Part shown: one piece after another, positions 13,849 through 26,720 of the stretch
How the letters are laid out: every line of letters begins with the position of its first letter
Numbering within the stretch: the first letter of the stretch is position 1
From: Bacteroidia bacterium
Lineage (GTDB): Bacteria; Bacteroidota; Bacteroidia; UBA4408
DNA length: 33,750 nt
Assembly: GCA_020845635.1 (NCBI GenBank)
Contig: JADLFI010000040.1
Location: 1-33,750, forward strand
Reading direction: 5' to 3'
Translations under genes and position numbers: made by a program
The notes under the pieces: generated by a model
What the model saw: the letters and a program-made list of their open reading frames with translations, nothing else
Databases searched by the model: none
Told to the model about the DNA's origin: nothing

Positions 13849-14763
13849 ATGATTGATATCACACATAAAAATAGAACATTAAGAGAAGCTGTAGCAGGTG
13901 CCATATTATGCGTATCAAAGCCTGAAACTATTGATGCAGTTATAAATAATAAAGTTCCTAAAGGCAATGTTTTTGAAATGGCTAAAACTGCCGGATTGTT
14001 TGCTGTAAAGAAAACAGCCGATATGATTCCCGATTGTCATCCTTTGCCTGTTGAGTTTACCTCAGTAAGTTATACTTTAAACGACTTAGAAATTCATATT
14101 GAAGTAAAAGTTAAGACCATATACCGTACCGGAGTTGAAGTTGAAGCTATGCATGGTGCCAGTGTTGTGGCATTGACAATGTACGATATGCTTAAACCTA
14201 TTGATAAAGGAATAGAAATAAGAAATATAAAGTTATTGAGCAAATCAGGAGGTAAATCAGATTGGAAAGATAAGTATATGGAACTCCACTTGAATGCCAA
14301 TGTTATTGTATGCTCCGATTCTATAAGTGCAGGTAAAAAGGAAGATAAAGCAGGTTTAGCCATAGTGAGCAAGTTAAAATCCGTGGGTGTAGATATAAAT
14401 CATTACCAAATTATTGCTGATGAGAAAGAATCTATTTTCGAACAGGTAATGCAGGCGGTTAATGATAAAGTTAACATACTTGTTTTTACCGGAGGTACCG
14501 GGCTATCTATGCGCGATGTTACCCCCGAGTCAATTATTCCTATGCTAGATCGCAGAATCCCGGGGGTTGAAGAAACTATCAGAAATTATGGTCAAGAGCG
14601 TACACCTCTTTCTATGCTGTCGCGTAGTGTAGTGGGGGTAAAAGGCAAAACTTTAATCATTGCATTGCCGGGTTCTACCAAAGGAGCAACAGAATCAGTA
14701 GAAGCTATATTTCCGGCAGTATTACATATTTTTAGAATATTTAAAGGTACTCGGCACGATTAA
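13849..14763 (+). CDS. moaCB: bifunctional MoaC-MoaB fusion
   Basis: A 304-residue fusion. Residues 1-145 are MoaC (cyclic pyranopterin monophosphate synthase): KGNVFEMAKTAGLFAVKKTADMIPDCHPLP and EVEAMHGASVVALTMYDMLK, with the conserved Lys/His/Asp active-site residues in place. Residues 150-304 are a MoaB/MogA molybdopterin adenylyltransferase domain: VIVCSDSISAGKKEDKAG, LVFTGGTGLSMRDVTPE and IALPGSTKGATESVEAI. It thus joins an early step (with MoaA) and a late step (before MoeA) of the pathway in one chain. Such fusions are known in Bacteroidota. Ten bp after moaE. Confidence 0.93.
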   Translation: MIDITHKNRTLREAVAGAILCVSKPETIDAVINNKVPKGNVFEMAKTAGLFAVKKTADMIPDCHPLPVEFTSVSYTLNDLEIHIEVKVKTIYRTGVEVEAMHGASVVALTMYDMLKPIDKGIEIRNIKLLSKSGGKSDWKDKYMELHLNANVIVCSDSISAGKKEDKAGLAIVSKLKSVGVDINHYQIIADEKESIFEQVMQAVNDKVNILVFTGGTGLSMRDVTPESIIPMLDRRIPGVEETIRNYGQERTPLSMLSRSVVGVKGKTLIIALPGSTKGATESVEAIFPAVLHIFRIFKGTRHD

Positions 14764-15159: not shown

Positions 15160-15615
15160 ATGGGTTTAATTGAAAATGAAGATTTAGCAAACGGTGAATT
15201 TTTAAACGAAGCATTCAGGTTTTGGTTTAATGATAATAATCATATTCGTTCTCCTTTTCCTGAATATATTCACATACCGTTACAACAGGAATCAACCAAA
15301 AAATTCCGCAAATGGTTAAACCACGTTCATCCCGATGCTAAAGATGAAATTAATGATGAGATATTGGCAGAAAAGTTTGAAGAGATTTTATTTGAAACCG
15401 CTCTTAATTTGGTATTGACCGATGATGAAAGAATAACTATTTTGTATCCTTTCTTGCCACGCTTAGGAGATAAAATAAAGGCTAATGATAATTCAGAAAG
15501 TGTCATCTCGGGTAGGGTTATTAAGAAAGAAAATGATAAGAAATACCTTCGACTTAGCTGCACCAAGTTGCTTACCGATATTAAATGGGAAACATCTATT
15601 GAACTACCCGAGTGA
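15160..15615 (+). CDS. unrecognised protein at the end of the molybdenum operon
   Basis: A 151-residue, acidic, probably cytoplasmic protein with no signal peptide, membrane segment or Cys cluster. The first 90 residues look helical and polar (NEAFRFWFNDNNHIRSPFPE, KFRKWLNHVHPDAKDEINDE). The segment LTDDERITILYPFLPRLGDK is followed by a short beta-rich tail (VISGRVIKKENDKKYLRLSC). I do not recognise a family. Its place as the last gene of the operon, directly before narK, suggests a helper in nitrate reductase maturation or a regulator; this is a guess. Confidence 0.75.
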   Translation: MGLIENEDLANGEFLNEAFRFWFNDNNHIRSPFPEYIHIPLQQESTKKFRKWLNHVHPDAKDEINDEILAEKFEEILFETALNLVLTDDERITILYPFLPRLGDKIKANDNSESVISGRVIKKENDKKYLRLSCTKLLTDIKWETSIELPE

Positions 15616-15733: not shown

Positions 15734-17254
15734 ATGGCGACTTCAATTCAATCCGAAAGCAAAACTCCCAACCCAAATGTAATACTGTTTCTTACCACCT
15801 TGGCGTTTACTATATGCTTTGCTGCATGGATGTTTAACGGGGTAATGGTAACTTTTTTAGTTGATAAGGGAGTGTTTAACTGGGGGGCTGTACAAATTGG
15901 GTGGCTGCTTGGAATTCCTGTACTTGTTGGTTCTGTAATGCGTTTGCCAATGGGTATATTAACCGATAAGTTAGGCGGCCGATTTGTATTTACAGGCTTA
16001 TTGTTATTTTGTGCAATTCCAATGTTCTTCTTAAGCAAAGCAAATGATTTTGCATCATTTGCTTTGCTGAGTTTTGGATATGGTATGGCCGGTTCAGGTT
16101 TTTCTGTTGGAGTAGCTTATACTTCTGTTTGGTATTCAAGAGAGTGGCAGGGAAGGGCTTTAGGTATTTTTGGCGTTGGCAATGCAGGGTCGGCCATAAC
16201 CACCTTGCTTGCTCCAACTATCTTAAATAAAATAACTAATAATGGCGCTGATATTGAACAATGGCGCATATTGCCTCAAATATATGCGGCTGTGTTAGTT
16301 ATTATGGCTGTGATATTCTTCCTATTTACGGTAAATAAAAAACCTCAAATAGGTCAAAAAACAGTAAATCAAATGCTCAAACCACTAGGCAATGTTCGCG
16401 TGTGGCGTTTTGGTTTATATTATTTCTTAGTATTTGGCTGCTTTGTAGCCTTCTCGCAATGGTTGGTTCCTTACTTTGTAAATGTATATGGTGCCTCTTT
16501 GGTTGTTGCCGGCTTGTTTGCTGCTTTATTCAGTATGCCTTCCGGATTAATACGTGCTGTTGGAGGTTGGATGAGTGATAGGTGGGGCGCACGTAAAGTA
16601 ATGATTTCTGTTTTTATATGGTCCATCTTTTTTAGTGCCCTATTAATTTTCCCTAAGATGGATATTTTAACTCCCGGAAAAGGCGTTATTGCCATTAAAG
16701 ACGGACAAGTTACTTCTGTAACAGAGTCGGTAATTACAGTTGACCAGATTGAATATCCCGTTAAGGTAAAACAACAAGATTATGAATTAAGTCAAGAATC
16801 TTCATCTGTTTTTCCTCATAAAAACACCTGGCAAACACCTGTAGTAAAAGAAGGAGAAATGATTAAAAAGAAACAACTACTGGCCCAAGGAACATCACAT
16901 ATACATTTTAGTGCTAATATGTGGGTATATGCGGTATTGGTTTTGTTGATTGGCATTGTATGGGGCATTGGTAAAGCCAGTGTTTACAAATTTATTCCTG
17001 ATTATTTTCCAAATGATATAGGTGCTGTTGGTGGTATGGTTGGCGTAATTGGTGGACTAGGTGGATTTATATGCCCAATCATTTTTGGGTATTTGTTAGA
17101 GTGGACGGGCTTATGGACAAGTTGTTGGTTTTTGATGCTACTTATTTCTATTGTTTGCTTTATGTGGATGAAACGTGTAGTACGCGGAATTATGAGAAAA
17201 CATGCGCCTCATGTGGCTGATGATATCGAACACAAAAATGAACCTATAAAATAA
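15734..17254 (+). CDS. narK: NarK1-type nitrate transporter with an extra loop domain
   Basis: A 506-residue MFS permease with about 12 membrane helices. Hallmarks are the first-half substrate Arg (GSVMRLPMGILTDKLGGRF), the motif SGFSVGVAYTSVWYSREWQGRALGIFGVGNAGSA, and the second Arg (SGLIRAVGGWMSDRWGARK). Members of the NarK1 group are taken as nitrate/proton symporters. An insertion of about 85 polar residues (about 309-393) lies between membrane helices of the C-terminal half and reads like a small beta-rich domain (TPGKGVIAIKDGQVTSVTES; VKEGEMIKKKQLLAQG). It is paired with narK2 11 bp downstream, as NarK1-NarK2 often are. Confidence 0.9.
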   Translation: MATSIQSESKTPNPNVILFLTTLAFTICFAAWMFNGVMVTFLVDKGVFNWGAVQIGWLLGIPVLVGSVMRLPMGILTDKLGGRFVFTGLLLFCAIPMFFLSKANDFASFALLSFGYGMAGSGFSVGVAYTSVWYSREWQGRALGIFGVGNAGSAITTLLAPTILNKITNNGADIEQWRILPQIYAAVLVIMAVIFFLFTVNKKPQIGQKTVNQMLKPLGNVRVWRFGLYYFLVFGCFVAFSQWLVPYFVNVYGASLVVAGLFAALFSMPSGLIRAVGGWMSDRWGARKVMISVFIWSIFFSALLIFPKMDILTPGKGVIAIKDGQVTSVTESVITVDQIEYPVKVKQQDYELSQESSSVFPHKNTWQTPVVKEGEMIKKKQLLAQGTSHIHFSANMWVYAVLVLLIGIVWGIGKASVYKFIPDYFPNDIGAVGGMVGVIGGLGGFICPIIFGYLLEWTGLWTSCWFLMLLISIVCFMWMKRVVRGIMRKHAPHVADDIEHKNEPIK

Positions 17255-17265
17255 CATTATATTCT

Positions 17266-18630
17266 ATGAATACAACAACAAATTCAAAGTCTTCAACTTG
17301 GCTTTCGCACTGGGATGCAGAAGATAGTAAGTTTTGGGAAAATGAAGGGGAGAAATTTGCCTGGAAAACATTGTGGGTAACCACCATTGCCTTAACCTTA
17401 TCTTTTGCTACATGGTTTATGGTAAGTACTCTTGTAGTAAAACTTCCGGGAATAGGTTTTAATTTTACTCAAGATCAACTTTTTTGGTTAGCAGCTATGC
17501 CAGGTTTGGCAGCAGGTACATTACGCATAGTACATACTTTTCTATTACCAATTTACGGGACCCGTCATGTTGTATCCTTTTCTACATTAATTAAACTTAT
17601 TCCATGTATAGGTTTAGGAATGGCCGTCATGAATCCAACTACCCCATTTTGGGTATTTATGGTATTGGCATTCACTGCAGGTTTTGGTGGTGGCGATTTT
17701 TCTTCATTTATGCCTTCAACCAATTTGTTTTTTCCTAAACGACTTAAAGGAACCGCCCTTGGCATACAAGCCGGTATTGGTAATTTTGGAGTAAGCCTGG
17801 CTCAATTTATGACTCCTGTAATTTTGGGCCTTGCATTTATGAGTTCTCAAACTTTTACAAAGGTAAATCCTGTAACTAAAGAGGTGGAAGGAACTAGTCA
17901 GATTTATTTACATAATGCAGCATTTTGGTATGTGCCTTTTGTATTAATTACTGTTGTTATCAGTTGGTTCATGCTTCGCAGCATACCTATCAAAGCTTCA
18001 TTTAAAGAGCAGTTAGATATTTTTAAAGAAAAACATACTTGGTATTGCACTATTACATATTTTATGACCTTTGGTACATTCTCCGGGCTGTCAGCAGCTT
18101 TCCCAATGATGATGAAAGCCTTATACGGTAATTTTGAGGGAGCACCGGATCCTTTGAAATATGCTTTCTACGGGCCTTTAATTGGTTCTGCCAGCAGGGT
18201 GTTATTTGGATTTGTTTCTGATAAAACCGGTGGTGGTGTATTAACAACTATTTCAGGGCTTGGCCTTATTGTTGGTTCGGTACTTTTAGTGGTAATGGGA
18301 TTGGTAGCACCCACTTCAATAGAGCAGTTTCCTATGTTTGTTTCTATAATGCTTATTATGTTTTTCTTTGCCGGAATAGGCAATGCCTCCACCTTTCGTC
18401 AGTTCCCAATTATTTTTCAGGATAATCCCCGTCAGGCTTCCGGGGTTATCGGTTGGACTGCAGCCATTGCTGCTTATGGCCCGTTTATCTTTTCTATGAT
18501 TATTGGTGTTGTTATTAAAACTTCAGCTAACGCAAATTCATTTTTCTGGGGCTTAACGGTTTTCTTGCTTGTAGCCACTTGGATTAATTGGAATTATTAT
18601 CACAAAAGAGGCTGCGAAAGACCTAGCTAA
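17266..18630 (+). CDS. narK2: NarK2-type nitrate/nitrite antiporter
   Basis: A 454-residue MFS permease, closer to Escherichia coli NarK. The N-terminus (FWENEGEKFAWKTLWVTT) precedes helix 1. Substrate Arg87 lies in AGTLRIVHTF; the nitrate signatures are FTAGFGGGDFSSFMPSTNLF and GTALGIQAGIGNFGVSLAQF; the second Arg is in GPLIGSASRVLFGFVSD. The group exchanges nitrate for nitrite, or takes up nitrate, across the inner membrane. With NarK1 it supplies the inward-facing NarG and removes nitrite. Note that the segment FTKVNPVTKEVEGTSQIY is a loop between helices. Confidence 0.92.
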   Translation: MNTTTNSKSSTWLSHWDAEDSKFWENEGEKFAWKTLWVTTIALTLSFATWFMVSTLVVKLPGIGFNFTQDQLFWLAAMPGLAAGTLRIVHTFLLPIYGTRHVVSFSTLIKLIPCIGLGMAVMNPTTPFWVFMVLAFTAGFGGGDFSSFMPSTNLFFPKRLKGTALGIQAGIGNFGVSLAQFMTPVILGLAFMSSQTFTKVNPVTKEVEGTSQIYLHNAAFWYVPFVLITVVISWFMLRSIPIKASFKEQLDIFKEKHTWYCTITYFMTFGTFSGLSAAFPMMMKALYGNFEGAPDPLKYAFYGPLIGSASRVLFGFVSDKTGGGVLTTISGLGLIVGSVLLVVMGLVAPTSIEQFPMFVSIMLIMFFFAGIGNASTFRQFPIIFQDNPRQASGVIGWTAAIAAYGPFIFSMIIGVVIKTSANANSFFWGLTVFLLVATWINWNYYHKRGCERPS

Positions 18631-18847: not shown

Positions 18848-19405
18848 ATGGAAAAATATCTTTCTGAAAAACTAAAATTGCTAGGGTTACTTTTTGCTTT
18901 CTTTCATGTAAGCCTTGTGTTTAATTCTGCTTATGCACAAATGAGTCCCGAAGTTCTTGAAGGGAAAAATTTATTTGAAGGTCGTGTGCGTTTTGAAAAT
19001 CGAGGTCCCTCATGTATTAGCTGCCACTCGGTAAATAGTAAAGATGTTGCTATGGGAGGTTTGTTAGCTAAAAATTTAACGGATGTTTATACAAGAATGG
19101 GTGAGGGGCTTTCGGCATGGTTGGCCGCACCTCCTTTTCCTGCAATGGCTTCATCATATCAAAACAATCCTTTAACCGACTCGGAGAGAGTTAAATTACA
19201 AACTTTTTTGAAGTATGTAAATGATGCTGACCAAAAAACAAAGGTAGCTGAAGATAAAGGTTATGGAGTTATGCTTACTGCCGGACTTACCGGTGTAGCA
19301 ATCATAATTATTTTTATTGGCATTATATGGCGAGTACGTAAAACTAAAATGGTTAAACAAGAAATTTTTGACAGGCAAATCAAAGCAGTTGATGCAAAAT
19401 TTTAA
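18848..19405 (+). CDS. membrane-anchored monohaem cytochrome c of the nar operon
   Basis: A 185-residue protein with an N-terminal signal sequence (to about AYA-Q at 30), one class I haem-c domain with CISCH at residues 56-60 and a likely axial Met100 (PFPAMASSY), then a C-terminal membrane helix (about 144-161) and a short basic tail inside the cell. It is the first gene of the narGHJI operon, directly behind an FNR-like box. Its position recalls the NarC cytochrome of the Thermus nar operon, though that protein is larger and dihaem. It probably passes electrons on the periplasmic face to or from the cytochrome c domain fused to NarI. Confidence 0.85.
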   Translation: MEKYLSEKLKLLGLLFAFFHVSLVFNSAYAQMSPEVLEGKNLFEGRVRFENRGPSCISCHSVNSKDVAMGGLLAKNLTDVYTRMGEGLSAWLAAPPFPAMASSYQNNPLTDSERVKLQTFLKYVNDADQKTKVAEDKGYGVMLTAGLTGVAIIIIFIGIIWRVRKTKMVKQEIFDRQIKAVDAKF

Positions 19406-19435: not shown

Positions 19436-22400
19436 ATGAGCTGGATAGAAGATTTAATTTCACCTAACACACGTAAGTGGGAGGAATTTTATAGAAACAG
19501 ATGGCAGTACGACCGTATTGTACGCAGCACACATGGTGTTAATTGTACCGGTGGATGCTCGTGGGCAATTCATGTTAAAGATGGTATTGTTGTTTGGGAA
19601 ATGCAACAGGTAGATTATCCTCAGTTTAATAAAGAAATTCCTCCATACGAGCCTAGAGGCTGTCAGCGTGGTATCTCTTATTCATGGTATTTATATAGCC
19701 CTATTCGTGTAAAGTACCCCATTATTAGAGGAGCTTTAATTGATTTATATAAAGAAGAAAAGGAAAAATGCGGAGGCGACCCCGTAAAAGCATGGGCAAA
19801 CCTTCAGGCAGATCCAGAAAAGAGAAAAAGATATCAACGTGCCAGAGGCAAAGGTGGTTTCCGCAGACTAAAATGGGATGAAGTAATTGAAATTATTGCG
19901 GCCTCCAACATCTATACCATTCAAAAATATGGCTCAGACCGTATTATAGGTTTTGCCCCCATCCCTGCCAAGAGTATGTTAAGCTACGCTTCAGGAGCTA
20001 GATATCTACAATTAATGGGGGCTGTTAATTTGTCGTTTTACGATTGGTATTGCGATTTGCCAAACGCTTTCCCCGAAATTTGGGGTGAACAAACAGATGT
20101 TTGCGAATCGGCCGATTGGTATAAATCCAAATTCATTGTTTCCATGGGTGCCAATCTCGGAATGACACGTACACCCGATATTCATTTCTTCTCGGAGGCT
20201 CGCCATAATGGAACTAAAACCGTGGTAATGGCGCCCGACTTTAGTATGGTGGCTAAGCATGCCGACCAATGGATTCCCGTGCATGCAGGATCTGACGGGG
20301 CTTTTTGGATGGCTGTAACTCATGTTATTTTACAAGAATATCATGTGGATAGAAAAGTTCCTTACTTTATTGATTATCTAAAAAAATATACCGATTGCCC
20401 ATTTTTAGTGAAATTAGAGAAAGATGGTGATAAATTATTGCCGGGCAGAATGATTAGAGCTAATGAAATTGCTAAGTATTCGGGTGCCGAAAATGGGGAT
20501 TGGAAATTTTTAAACTATGATTCAAAAACCGGTGAATTAGTTTGCCCTATGGGAACTATGGGATATAGATGGCAAGAGAAAAAAGGGCAATGGAACTTAT
20601 TTTTTAAAGATGGAGAAACCGGTGCTGATTATGACCCTGAATTATCCTTCTTAGAAAAAAATGAAGGTGTTATACAAGTAGAATTTACTGAATTTGGACT
20701 AAATAAAAAAGCATTGCGAGGTGTTCCGGTTAGATACATCACCACCTCTAAAGGCGAAAAAATTGCCGTGGCCACCATTTATGATTTAACAATGGCTCAA
20801 TATGGTATTGGGCGTGGATTACCCGGTGATTACCCAACTTCCTACAATGACGAAAAAGCAGCCTATACTCCTGCGTGGCAAGAAATATTTACCGGTATTG
20901 GCCGTAAAGAAGTAATTCAATTAGCCCGCGAATGGGCAAGTACAGCCGAAACTACCCAAGGAGCTTGTATGGTAATAGTTGGAGCAGGTATTAATCACTG
21001 GTTTCATGGCAACCTTATGTACCGTGCAGCTATTATGGCTCAAATGCTTACCGGATGTAATGGTAAAAATGGCGGAGGTATGAATCACTATGTAGGACAG
21101 GAGAAACTGGCTCCCATGGATTCATGGTCAACTATTATGAGTTCCAAGGACTGGGATACAGCACCACGCCTACAACAAGGCCCTATTTGGCATTATATTA
21201 ACTCTTGCCAATGGCGTTATGATGGCAATCAAAAGTTTTATAACTCATCACCGGATAATAAATTGTCAAACATTCACTCTGCCGATTGGGTAGTTATGTC
21301 TGTGCGCAATGGATGGATGCCATATTATCCACAATATAGCAAACGTAATTTTGATATTGTTCAAGATGCAAAACAAAGCGGTGCCAATACCGAAGAAGAA
21401 ATGAGAAAATATATAGTTGACCAAATTAAATCAGGGCAATTAAAATACTCTGCAGCCGAGCCTGATGAAGAAATTAATTTCCCACGTGTATGGTTCATTT
21501 GGAAAGGCAATGCCATTGGTACTTCTGCCAAAGGTCATGAGTATTTTTTAGACCATTATTTAGGGACTCATACCAATAAGATAGCTGATGAAGTTGCCGG
21601 AGATATTGTTAAAGATATTGCCTATAAAGGAAAAGAGGCTCCAAAAGGAAAAATGGATTTGGTTATTGATATTAATTTCCGTATGGATACCTCTGCCTTG
21701 TATTCCGACATTGTGTTACCTACTGCATCATGGTATGAAAAGGCTGATATTAATTCAACCGACATGCACTCATTTATTCACCCACTCTCAGAAGCTATAC
21801 CTCCTGTTTGGGAATCAAAAACAGATTGGCAGATCTTTAGAGAGTTAGCCCAAAAAGTGCAGGAAATGGCAAAAGTATATTTGCCTGAACCGATGTTAGA
21901 TGTGGTAAATGTTCCTTTATCACACGACTCAAAAGATGAAATTACTCAACCTACCCTGAAAGACTGGTTTAAAGGCGAATGTGAGCCTATTCCGGGAAAA
22001 ACTATGCATAAAATAGTGTTTAAAGAAAGAGATTACACCAAAATTTACGATAAGTTTATTACCCTTGGTGAGGGTGTAGCTAAGAATGGCTTAGGTGCCC
22101 ACGGGAACAGCTATAAATGTGAAGATGTTTATAACGAAATGTTAGAAAATAAGGAACATGTGATAAAACTTAGCAATGGCAAAACTTATCCATCTTTAAG
22201 GGCTGATGTTGAAGCTATTGATGCTATCCTAAAACTATCTACCTTAACCAACGGTAAGCTTACCAAGCGCTGTTACCAGAATATGGCCGAAAAAATTGGT
22301 AACAAAGATATTGCTTCCTTAGGTGATGGGTATGAGCAAATTTCAATGGAATACAGAGATTTACAAGCTCAACCAAAGCGTTATAACTCTTCCCCCTTAT

Positions 22401-23080
22401 GGTCAGGATTAATGCATGAGGGTAGAACCTATGCAGCTTACACCTATAATGTTGACTACTTTGTTCCTTGGCGTACACTTACCGGTCGTCAGCATTTTTA
22501 TCTTGACCACGATGCGTATATTGCCTTTGGCGAACACTTAGCTACTTATAAACCTTCGCCTACACCCGAGGTTTATGGTGACTTACGCAAAACCGTTAAT
22601 GATGGAAAAGCTAAAATGCTAAATTGTTTAACTCCACACGGTAAATGGCATATTCATTCTACTTATGGCGATACACTTAGAATGTTAACTTTATCAAGAG
22701 GTAATGAGCCTTGCTGGATGAGTGAAGAGGATGCCGCAGAATTAGGAATTAACGATAACGACCATGTAGAAGTTTATAACGATAATGGAGTTTATGTGGC
22801 ACGCGCCTGTGTTAGTGCCCGTATTCCAAAGGGAGTTTGTATTGTTTACCATGCTGTTGAGCGTACCTACAACATTCCTAAATCACAAACATTTAGAGGA
22901 AAGAATGGCGAGCCACGCAGAGGTGGTATGAACAATTCTTTTACACGTGTGCATTTAAAACCTAACCTAATGTGTGGTGGCTACGGTCAATTCACTTTTC
23001 ATTTTAACTATTGGGGACCTGTAGGTGTAAACCGTGATACCCATGTTTTAGTTCGCAAAATGCATGTTGTAGAATATTAA
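19436..23080 (+). CDS. narG: respiratory nitrate reductase alpha subunit NarG
   Basis: A 1214-residue molybdoenzyme that reduces nitrate to nitrite with bis-MGD. The FS0 4Fe-4S cluster ligands are His33, Cys37, Cys41 and Cys76 ([20 protein letters not shown]). The Mo-ligand Asp lies in [20 protein letters not shown]. Other hallmarks are [14 protein letters not shown], IIVGAGxNHWxHxNLMYR-type sequence near residue 515, and [15 protein letters not shown]. The C-terminal dinucleotide-binding region is complete ([23 protein letters not shown]). There is no twin-Arg signal, so the enzyme should face the cytoplasm as in E. coli. Thirty bp after the cytochrome c gene and 26 bp before narH. Confidence 0.98.
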
Positions 23081-23106: not shown

Positions 23107-24600
23107 ATGAATATAAGAGCACAAGTTTCTATGGTTTTTCACCTCGATAAATGTATCGGGTGTCACACTTGTTCCATTGCCTGTAAAAATGTATGGACTG
23201 ACCGCAGAGGAGCTGAATATATGTGGTGGAACAATGTGGAAACAAAACCGGGAACCGGTTACCCTACAAAATGGGAGGATCAGGAAATATATAAAGGAGG
23301 TTGGGAGAAAAACGGTGACTCGGTTTCTCTGAAAGGAGCCGGAAGGCTTAAAGGGCTGAAGAATATTTTTCATAACCCTAACTTGCCTACATTAGAAGAT
23401 TACTATCATCCTTGGGCTTATAAATACAGCGATTTGTTTACAGCTCCCGAAGGTAACGACCAGCCTATTGGCAGAGCTGTTTCGTTAGTTACCGGTGAAC
23501 CTATAGATATTAAATCAGGACCTAACTGGGATGATGATTTGAGTGGCACACCGGATTATGCCCGTAAAGATGTTAACTTCAAAGACCTTGATGAGCAAGA
23601 TCAAAAAACCATGTTCCAATTGGAACAAATGACAATGATGTATTTGCCACGCATTTGTAATCATTGTTTAAATCCTGCTTGTGTTGCCTCTTGCCCATCG
23701 GGAGCCATTTATAAAAGAGGCGAAGATGGTGTGGTATTAATTAATCAAGACAGGTGTCGCGCTTGGCGAATGTGTGTTACTGCCTGCCCTTATAAAAAGA
23801 GTTACTATAACTGGCATACCGGAAAATCAGAAAAATGTATTCTGTGTTATCCGCGTCTTGAGTCAGGACAGCCGCCAGCCTGCTTTCATTCTTGTGTAGG
23901 ACGCATCAGATATCTAGGGGTTATGTTATATGATGCTGACAAGATTGAACAGGTGGCTGCTTCTGACGATAAAGATTTAGTTCAAGCCCAGCTAGATATT
24001 TATTTAGACCCAAACAATCCTGAAGTAATTGAACAGGCACGCAAAAATGGTGTGCATGATTCAACGATTACTGCAGCGCAAAATTCACCCGTTTATAAGT
24101 TTGTAAAGCAATGGGGAGTGGCATTGCCATTGCACCCTGAGTTCAGAACTTTACCTAACCTGTTTTACGTGCCTCCTATGTTACCGGCTATGGCTCAAGT
24201 TGATGAAAAAGGGATGTATAATACCAAATCAAATGAGATGTTCCCGGGTATTGACCACAATCGTATGCCAATGAAATATTTAGCTTCATTGTTCTCTAAT
24301 GGTGATACCCAAAAAATTGCCACCATTTATGAAAAACTTTTAAGTGTAAAGATGCACAGAAGAAGTGTAACAGTAGGCGATGTTGACAAGAGTACCTTAA
24401 ACAGCTTATTGGAGCGTTCAAAGGTTTCACCCGATATGGCCGATGCTATATTCCGTTTAACTTCATTGGCTACTTTCGAAGAACGTTTTGTTATTCCTCC
24501 TGCGCACCGCGAAGAATCAATAGAAATGATAGAAGCTACTGCAGATGTTAAGGGCGAAACAGGCTTTGGATTTAAATTAAAACCTACTAGAGGATTATAA
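23107..24600 (+). CDS. narH: nitrate reductase beta subunit NarH
   Basis: A 497-residue iron-sulfur subunit that carries electrons from NarI to NarG. Four Cys groups are seen: CIGCHTCSIACKNVW near residue 16, CNHCLNPACVASCPSGAI, CRAWRMCVTACPYKK and CILCYPRLESGQPPAC...CVGRIRYLG. The Trp in CRAW replaces a Cys and marks the 3Fe-4S cluster, as in other NarH proteins, so the set is three 4Fe-4S clusters plus one 3Fe-4S cluster. Length and C-terminus are normal. Confidence 0.98.
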   Translation: MNIRAQVSMVFHLDKCIGCHTCSIACKNVWTDRRGAEYMWWNNVETKPGTGYPTKWEDQEIYKGGWEKNGDSVSLKGAGRLKGLKNIFHNPNLPTLEDYYHPWAYKYSDLFTAPEGNDQPIGRAVSLVTGEPIDIKSGPNWDDDLSGTPDYARKDVNFKDLDEQDQKTMFQLEQMTMMYLPRICNHCLNPACVASCPSGAIYKRGEDGVVLINQDRCRAWRMCVTACPYKKSYYNWHTGKSEKCILCYPRLESGQPPACFHSCVGRIRYLGVMLYDADKIEQVAASDDKDLVQAQLDIYLDPNNPEVIEQARKNGVHDSTITAAQNSPVYKFVKQWGVALPLHPEFRTLPNLFYVPPMLPAMAQVDEKGMYNTKSNEMFPGIDHNRMPMKYLASLFSNGDTQKIATIYEKLLSVKMHRRSVTVGDVDKSTLNSLLERSKVSPDMADAIFRLTSLATFEERFVIPPAHREESIEMIEATADVKGETGFGFKLKPTRGL

Positions 24601-24620: not shown

Positions 24621-25310
24621 ATGCAAAACATAAGTCATTATAATTTACTGGCAAACTTGTTCAGATATCCTGATCATAAGTACAAAACAAATATTATTGA
24701 ATGTGCCAATATGCTTCAAAATATATACCCCGATGCTTTTGAAGAAATGAAACCGTTCTATAATTATATCTTAAGTAAAGATGATGATGAAATTGAAGAA
24801 ATATTTGCTAAAACTTTTCATATTCAAGCTGTTTGTTTCTTAGATATTGGTTATGTTTTGTTTGCCGAAGATTACAAGCGAGGCGACTTTTTAGTGAAAG
24901 TAAAAAGTGAACAAGAAAAAGTTAACAATGATTGTGGCAACGAATTGGCCGACAATTTACCCAACATTCTTACCCTATTACCATTACTCCACGATAAATT
25001 ATTCTTAGCTGAATTTGCAGTAAGAATTGTAAAACCTGCTATTGAGAAAATGCTTGATGAGTTTAACACGGCACGTATGGAACTTAAAGACAAGGTTAGA
25101 CAAAAAAAGCAAAAAGTAATTATTATGGAAAATGTTGAAAATAAAAATATTTTTCAGTATGCACTTCAAGCTTTATATACGGTTATACAGCACGATTTTG
25201 CGCATGTTTCGTACAACGATCCTTTAATTAAACCAACCATAGGCAGCGATTTCTTAAAGAATTGTAACACCGGATGTTCAACTACGCCACAACTTATTAA
25301 AAACAATTAG
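24621..25310 (+). CDS. narJ: nitrate reductase chaperone NarJ
   Basis: A 229-residue, all-helical cytoplasmic protein of the NarJ/TorD family, which binds NarG and guides cofactor insertion and membrane assembly. Family features are the N-terminal LLANLFRYPD and FAKTFHIQAVCFLDIGYVLFAEDYKRGDFLVK, which matches the conserved LYLFEHVHGDSRDRGQAM region in altered form. The C-terminus (FLKNCNTGCSTTPQLIKNN) has two Cys not usual for the family. It lies between narH and narI, 3 bp before the latter. Confidence 0.9.
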   Translation: MQNISHYNLLANLFRYPDHKYKTNIIECANMLQNIYPDAFEEMKPFYNYILSKDDDEIEEIFAKTFHIQAVCFLDIGYVLFAEDYKRGDFLVKVKSEQEKVNNDCGNELADNLPNILTLLPLLHDKLFLAEFAVRIVKPAIEKMLDEFNTARMELKDKVRQKKQKVIIMENVENKNIFQYALQALYTVIQHDFAHVSYNDPLIKPTIGSDFLKNCNTGCSTTPQLIKNN

Positions 25311-25313
25311 GTT

Positions 25314-26720
25314 ATGAAATATACTATTAATAAAATGAAAGCAACAGTAAATCCAATTCCCCAAAAAAGCAACAAACTTATATTCATGTTGCTAATGACC
25401 ATTGTTTTGATAGTGCCCTACAAATCAATGGCCAAAACAGGTCAGGAAATTTATAAAGAATTGTGTGCTGCCTGTCATACCTTAACCGATAAGAGATTAG
25501 TAGGTCCCGGGTTTGCCGGAGTTACTGAAAGAAGATCAGAAGACTGGCTTATTTCTTGGATTAAAGACTCACAGGCAATGGTTAAAGCCGGTGATAAAGA
25601 TGCGGTTGCTATTTTTGAGGAATATAACAAAACTCCCATGCCTGGCTACGCATCACAATTATCTGATGATGAAATTAAAGATTTATTGAAGTTTTTGGCT
25701 GAAGATCATACGGTAGTAGCTGCTACTACAGCAACAAGCGGAGCTTCACCCACTACAGTCGAACCAAAAAAATCAGAGCCTTTGTCAATTTATACCATTG
25801 GGGCAATTATTGTTTTAATTTTATTAGGTTTTTGGCTCTATAAACTTCGCGAAAGCACCAATAAACAAATGCGCGACTTAGGCTTTCATTCCGAACCGCA
25901 CGAAATTCCTAATTATTCTCTTCACCTGTTAATTTATATATCAATTGCCTCTATTTTAATATATTTCTTAATCGAGGCTCTTACCCTAAAATCAGGAATG
26001 ATAGATACAATTATGTTTATAGCTTTTCCTTATTTCTCATTAGGCATTTTCCTTATTGGAAGTATTTACAGATATCTCAACAGAGGTTTTCAAGTATCAT
26101 CACTCTCGTCACAATTCTTAGAAGGACGCAAACTATTCTGGGGTAGCCTACCATTTCACTGGGGCTTATTTGTTCTCTTTTTTGGGCACCTAATAGCTTT
26201 CTTATTCCCTTCTTCGGTTATGGCCTGGAACGGACATCCGGTACGTTTGTTAATTCTTGAGCTATCCTCATTTGCTTTTGGGTTAGGCGCTTTGTTGGGT
26301 TTAATACTATTAATTAAGCGTAGATTGGCGAGCCGAAAATTATTAGTTGTAGCCAATAAAATGGATATGGTTGTATATACCGTATTATTAACACAAATAG
26401 TATCCGGATTAGGGGTTGCATTCTTTGTTCGTTGGGGGTCTTCATGGTTTGCCAGCGTACTTACGCCATACTTACGTTCTATTTTCTCTTTTAATCCTGA
26501 TATTAGTGCAGTGGTAGAAATGCCTATTTGGGTTCAAATACATATTATTTCTGCCTTCTCTATTGTTGCTATTATTCCGTTTACACGCTTTGTACACTTC
26601 CTGGTTGCCCCGTTTGATTATGCTTGGCGCAAATACCAAATTGTAATTTGGAACTGGAATCCAAAATATATCAGAATGTCCAGAAAATGGAATTACGGTA
26701 AGAAAGCAAAAAATCACTAA
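25314..26720 (+). CDS. narI: NarI gamma subunit with N-terminal cytochrome c domain
   Basis: A 468-residue fusion; NarI alone is about 225. Residues 22-40 are a signal-like helix and residues 43-130 a class I cytochrome c domain with CAACH (51-55) and axial Met109 (TPMPGYASQLSDDEI). Residues 132-158 are a linker and 159-176 a membrane helix; NarI proper is about 200-440. The two haem b pairs are present with the E. coli spacing: His282 and His292 (10 apart; FHWGLFVLFFGHL), and His410 and His428 (18 apart; IHIISAFS...RFVHFL). So the quinol-oxidising diheme b core is intact and has an extra periplasmic haem c. An alternative start is the Met at codon 8. Confidence 0.93.
   Translation: MKYTINKMKATVNPIPQKSNKLIFMLLMTIVLIVPYKSMAKTGQEIYKELCAACHTLTDKRLVGPGFAGVTERRSEDWLISWIKDSQAMVKAGDKDAVAIFEEYNKTPMPGYASQLSDDEIKDLLKFLAEDHTVVAATTATSGASPTTVEPKKSEPLSIYTIGAIIVLILLGFWLYKLRESTNKQMRDLGFHSEPHEIPNYSLHLLIYISIASILIYFLIEALTLKSGMIDTIMFIAFPYFSLGIFLIGSIYRYLNRGFQVSSLSSQFLEGRKLFWGSLPFHWGLFVLFFGHLIAFLFPSSVMAWNGHPVRLLILELSSFAFGLGALLGLILLIKRRLASRKLLVVANKMDMVVYTVLLTQIVSGLGVAFFVRWGSSWFASVLTPYLRSIFSFNPDISAVVEMPIWVQIHIISAFSIVAIIPFTRFVHFLVAPFDYAWRKYQIVIWNWNPKYIRMSRKWNYGKKAKNH

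Follow-up and report, generated by a model that had tools for sequence, protein, structure and literature searches.

NarI fused to an N-terminal cytochrome c domain in a putative NarC-type respiratory nitrate reductase of Bacteroidota

Introduction

What does a haem c do when it is attached covalently to NarI, the haem b subunit of a respiratory nitrate reductase, and from where was it acquired? These questions are raised by the last gene of a nar operon in a Bacteroidia bacterium, which lies within the window analysed here, a contiguous stretch of 33,750 nucleotides. A preliminary description of the gene took the E. coli-type complex as its point of comparison, which proved to be the wrong relative, since the Thermus-type enzyme that contains NarC is closer and is known to carry cytochrome c. 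The enzyme encoded at this locus is a rearranged form of that known, cytochrome-c-containing nitrate reductase and not a new kind of enzyme; its unusual part is the haem c on NarI. No description of a NarI-cytochrome c fusion was found in the open-access literature, a search that leaves most subscription journals outside its reach.

Results

The operon has the order narK, narK, cytochrome c, narG, narH, narJ, narI, and a block of molybdenum-cofactor genes adjoins it (Table 1). The narI frame is open throughout and starts 3 bases past the narJ stop. NarG, NarH and NarI pass the cut-offs of the families to which the E. coli subunits belong. A twin-arginine signal was not seen in the NarG sequence, so its active site should be cytoplasmic. 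The product of the cytochrome gene that directly precedes narG gave no Pfam or NCBIfam match in profile searches.

Table 1. Coordinates of the nar genes in the window and of the parts of the fused NarI (aa, residues of the fused NarI)
Feature	Position	Strand	Basis
narK-type transporter 1	15734..17254	+	TIGR00886, 178 bits, below cut-off
narK-type transporter 2	17266..18630	+	TIGR00886, 282 bits, below cut-off
Monohaem membrane-anchored cytochrome c, corresponding to domain 2 and anchor of the dihaem NarC of relatives	18848..19405	+	Translation (CxxCH and C-terminal helix); tree
narG, catalytic subunit	19436..23080	+	TIGR01580, 1431.8 bits, cut-off 1084
narH, iron-sulphur subunit	23107..24600	+	TIGR01660, 663.3 bits, cut-off 524
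narJ-like assembly chaperone, divergent	24621..25310	+	TIGR00684, 21.4 bits, below cut-off; lies between narH and narI
narI with N-terminal cytochrome c head, 468 aa	25314..26720	+	Pfam and NCBIfam matches; kept in 8 further full-length copies
Signal helix, about aa 21-40	25374..25433	+	Hydropathy; putative export signal
Class I cytochrome c domain, aa 41-129; CxxCH C51-H55; candidate axial Met M109	25434..25700	+	Pfam PF00034; invariant residues
Low-complexity tether, about aa 130-152 (about 25 residues)	25701..25769	+	Sequence; sits between the cytochrome domain and the first extra helix
Two extra transmembrane helices, about aa 153-180 and 198-227	25770..25994	+	Hydropathy
NarI core, aa 231-446; haem b ligands H282, H292, H410, H428	26004..26651	+	PF02665; alignment to E. 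coli NarI

Three further features of this region were observed. Transporter 1 contains an inserted soluble stretch of about 90 aa around VVKEGEMIKKKQLLAQG, which by eye has the look of a biotinyl/lipoyl-type barrel, and the insert recurs in the NarK of loci L021 and L022. A 151-aa open reading frame beside the operon (15160-15615) has no Pfam match and has a clear relative near nar in locus L039 (12338-12793); its product is a conserved nar-linked protein without an assigned function. At 13849-14763, MoaC is fused with a molybdopterin-binding domain of the MogA/MoaB type in one 304-aa protein.

The architecture of the fused NarI was explored by profile searches and alignment. The signal helix and class I cytochrome c, with CxxCH and an axial Met, that the preliminary description had placed ahead of NarI were both recovered: Cytochrom_C of Pfam matches aa 41-129 with 40.2 bits (cut-off 21.3), and C51, C54, H55 and M109 are invariant among the 8 fused sequences aligned. 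Nitrate_red_gam matches aa 231-446 with 197.6 bits (Pfam), and the protein passes the NCBIfam equivalog for narI, TIGR00351 (117 bits, cut-off 105.55). All four haem b histidines of NarI are present, as had been claimed, H282, H292, H410 and H428 aligning with H56, H66, H187 and H205 of E. coli NarI. The E. coli spacing that had been attributed to them holds within the pairs (10 and 18 residues) but not between the pairs, which lie 3 residues closer together. No CxxCH occurs beyond the head, NarI standing in the place that is occupied in ActA by a pentahaem domain.

The two extra transmembrane helices, like the monohaem cytochrome gene upstream of narG, were missed in the preliminary description. 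These helices also occur without haem c in the NarI of G015, G019, G463 and other genomes. The loop between them is short and, judging from the sequence, should face the cytoplasm. With the head outside, one helix leading in and the other leading out, hydropathy suggests that the chain returns to the periplasmic side, which is where the N-terminus of E. coli NarI starts.

At the quinol-site positions examined (E. coli numbering), G65 and H66 are kept, and K86 of the E. coli protein is replaced by R in this NarI, as it is in all Bacteroidota NarI sequences aligned. Apart from the exchange at K86 these residues are kept, so electrons can probably still enter from quinol, with the haem c as an addition to that route. 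An AlphaFold2 model of the fused NarI, built from the 8-sequence alignment, had a mean pLDDT of 47 and a pTM of 0.32, too low for reading distances between haems. Given the flexible tether, a static distance between haem c and haem b would not be decisive.

The same domain order had been proposed as something to look for elsewhere in Bacteroidota, and 8 other full-length copies were found (L035-L041 and G511, with L036 and L037 near-identical). These independent copies rule out chance or an assembly artefact as the origin of the fusion. The named carriers are metagenome-assembled genomes labelled Crocinitomix (three), Fluviicola, Flavobacteriales, Cyclobacteriaceae and Bacteroidota. A strong NarI match was obtained in 25 of 395 Bacteroidota genomes, with a frame of the fused length only in the genome of the window and one frame at 320, and NarI of this type is present in 43 of 395 genomes of the class, being fused in the window and in G511. 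G536 carries a NarI of the fused type with a broken head (L060, 1459-2556), in which the half with the axial Met is in frame and the half with CxxCH is missing; no long narG frame was found near it, and the break reflects either decay or misassembly.

In a tree of NarI cores, the fused forms together with those bearing two extra helices are split from short NarI (92.8/81), and the support covers that split only. The survey of the order to which the organism belongs comprised 8 genomes, too few to be informative. It was observed that G001 and G002, of the same genus, have no NarI, that G003, also of that genus, has a different, split layout, and that the NarI of the window is closest to copies from other families. 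This distribution suggests that the operon has probably moved horizontally.

To place the fusion among its relatives, the haem c domains of whole operons were compared. Among 60 relatives surveyed, 10 besides the genome of the window have NarI, unfused in every case and preceded at a distance of about 7 kb by a cytochrome c match. Three layouts were distinguished. In the first, a short NarI accompanies a dihaem NarC (G009, G010, G012, G033, G039, G040 and G050), with a variant in G003, where two separate monohaem genes are found. In the second, a NarI of about 320 aa has the two extra helices and no haem c, again with a dihaem NarC (G015, G019, G463, G638 and G655, which were read directly, and G577 and G637, which were placed by the length of the NarI open frame). 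In the third, a fused NarI accompanies a monohaem NarC (the window, L037, L038, L039, L040, L041 and G511).

Two haem c domains are thus encoded outside NarI in 15 of 15 unfused operons, 14 times in a dihaem gene and once, in G003, in two genes. The upstream gene is monohaem in all seven fused operons in which it is visible; L035 and L036 are fused and stand outside this count, their contigs not being seen to reach the upstream gene. NarC is therefore not dihaem in the window or in the six other fused operons, and a membrane-anchored cytochrome c directly before narG is present. By tree, the monohaem gene of the fused operons is domain 2 of NarC. The number of haem c domains per operon is kept at two, whether NarI is fused or not, and one of them sits on NarI here.

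The origin of the head was addressed in a tree of 30 heads, in which a split with 97.9/99 support puts fused heads and ActA heads on one side, and NarC domain 1 with two further anchored cytochromes on the other. The motif that follows the haem-binding site is GPG in 8/8 fused heads and 5/5 ActA heads, and GPD in 15/15 NarC domains 1, a difference without exception. Identity of the window's head is 57.7% with the ActA head encoded in the same genome, against 48.5% with the closest NarC domain 1. Once NarI is set aside, ActA of F. johnsoniae is the top match in the PDB (6btm_A, over query aa 42-194), and the protein shares with it the signal, the cytochrome c head, the tether and a membrane helix; after the head, ActA continues with its pentahaem domain and the window with NarI. 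The N-terminal head of ActA is a membrane-anchored mobile domain that was unresolved by cryo-EM and has been proposed as an electron shuttle to cytochrome aa3 (PMC8552683).

We conclude from these comparisons that the fused head was probably acquired from an ActA-type N-terminal mobile head of ACIII, with loss of NarC domain 1. The alternative that NarC domain 1 was simply transferred to NarI inside the operon is disfavoured by the grouping with ActA, by the GPG/GPD difference and by the higher identity to the ActA head of the same genome. Nevertheless, forcing the fused heads together with NarC domain 1 gave a pAU of 0.056, which survives the 5% level, and the two kinds of domain are perfectly complementary across operons, so that this origin is retained as a doubtful but serious candidate.

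The respiratory context was examined in the genome of the window. It contains norCB, nosZ with an adjoining cytochrome c gene, and the ACIII genes actA-D; a bc1 cytochrome b was sought and not found. In two fused relatives, norCB lies beside nar. NirS, NirK and NrfA were sought in the same assembly, which is 99.99% complete, and none was found; with norCB and nosZ standing without them, the denitrification chain is apparently broken.

Discussion

The closest known system is NarCGHI of Thermus thermophilus (narCGHJIKT), which has the same gene order, a cytoplasmic-type NarGHI and an anchored periplasmic cytochrome c before narG. Its NarI is the best match of the fused NarI in the plasmid collection (38.9% identity), and both domains of its NarC are matched by the dihaem NarC of the relatives (31%, E = 1e-14). 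The Thermus enzyme has its two haems c in NarC, together with a plain NarI of about 225 aa, whereas the operon of the window encodes a monohaem NarC and carries the second haem c on NarI. Thermus NarC interacts with NarI and is required for assembly, its loss leaving NarG soluble and immature, and growth on nitrite or NO stops without it, so that NarC was proposed to be an electron bridge from Nar to periplasmic reductases (PMC7694296).

In Geobacter metallireducens, compared here by description, the nar operons (Gmet_0328, Gmet_1019) are headed by a dihaem c-type cytochrome proposed as a link to non-quinol carriers, and the available part of that study mentions no NarI fusion (PMC2700814). 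The electron exchange with a cytochrome that had been read from the haem c of the window is hence plausible and in agreement with these homologous systems, but a haem c on a nitrate reductase was already known from them. E. coli NarGHI shares the four haem b histidines and G65 with the window and has no haem c subunit or domain. Another fusion among nar subunits is NarX of Mycobacterium, a fused NarG/J/I-like protein that carries no haem c.

With moderate confidence, we favour a respiratory nitrate reductase of the NarC (Thermus) type whose two periplasmic haem c domains are divided between two subunits: one domain, of probable ActA-head origin, is fused to the N-terminus of NarI and would act as a tethered electron shuttle. 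One haem c would be the head, tethered to NarI and provided with its own two-helix anchor, and the other would reside in NarC. The head would move on its linker, dock near haem bD at the periplasmic side, and exchange electrons between NarI and cytochrome partners, either periplasmic or anchored in the membrane, with ordinary menaquinol oxidation continuing alongside at the largely retained quinol site. The covalent tether to NarI argues that the haem of the head works beside the b haems.

The best guess for direction is that the head forms a branch point, at which electrons may, under nitrate shortage, leave NarI for the NO and N2O reductases that cytochrome c feeds, in line with the proposal made for Thermus NarC. 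Inward flow from ACIII is somewhat less likely than such an outward flow. The tethered shuttle is favoured on account of the role of Thermus NarC together with the norCB, nosZ and ACIII genes, without bc1, of the genome itself. Several points weigh against it. The direction is borrowed from Thermus, whose NarC has an identity of only about 31%; the search of the genome turned up no nitrite reductase, so the denitrification chain that would use the exported electrons is incomplete; docking and distance are extrapolated, the model having low pLDDT; and the ActA origin is not fully settled, given the pAU of the alternative.

Electrons may instead enter from ACIII, running from menaquinol through ACIII and the ActA/ActE haems to the NarI head, haems bD and bP, NarH and NarG, which would add a coupling site. 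The head is indeed closest to the mobile head of ActA, at the identity given above for the genome's own copy, and actA-D are present where bc1 cytochrome b was not found. In Streptomyces, Nar1 depends on the bcc-aa3 supercomplex and is co-purified with it (PMC7931247), which lends this route some support. However, with the quinol site of NarI largely kept, ACIII would be unneeded as a donor, and the ActA head sends electrons away from ACIII, so that the likeness may mean shared acceptors and not docking with ACIII. We therefore regard entry from ACIII as possible but unlikely. The fuller proposal, in which the ACIII mobile head was grafted on NarI so that Nar docks with ACIII or its usual acceptors and a quinol-ACIII-Nar chain gains an extra energy-coupling site, is slightly less likely still.

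It was also considered that the head and helices mainly stabilise NarI and the assembly of NarGH, electron transfer by the haem being minor. Loss of NarC in Thermus does affect assembly in this way (PMC7694296), and NarI forms exist that have the two extra helices and lack haem c; yet the fused sequences do not vary at CxxCH or M109, and every operon keeps two haem c domains, which a purely structural part would not need. A mainly structural role is accordingly improbable. Reverse running as a nitrite oxidoreductase, with electrons leaving NarI through the head for a terminal oxidase, is very improbable: a Thermus-like cluster has that role in Nitrobacter (PMC7694296) and reverse operation is suggested for Geobacter (PMC2700814), but the norCB and nosZ of this genome fit N-oxide respiration.

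The preferred reading, a tethered shuttle on NarI, gives the fused operons a wider meaning. They constitute a natural experiment on the role of haem c in NarC-type nitrate reductases, in which two domains are kept and one of them sits either on NarC or on NarI. If it is true that the head is of the ACIII shuttle type, ACIII and nitrate respiration would be linked in Bacteroidota.
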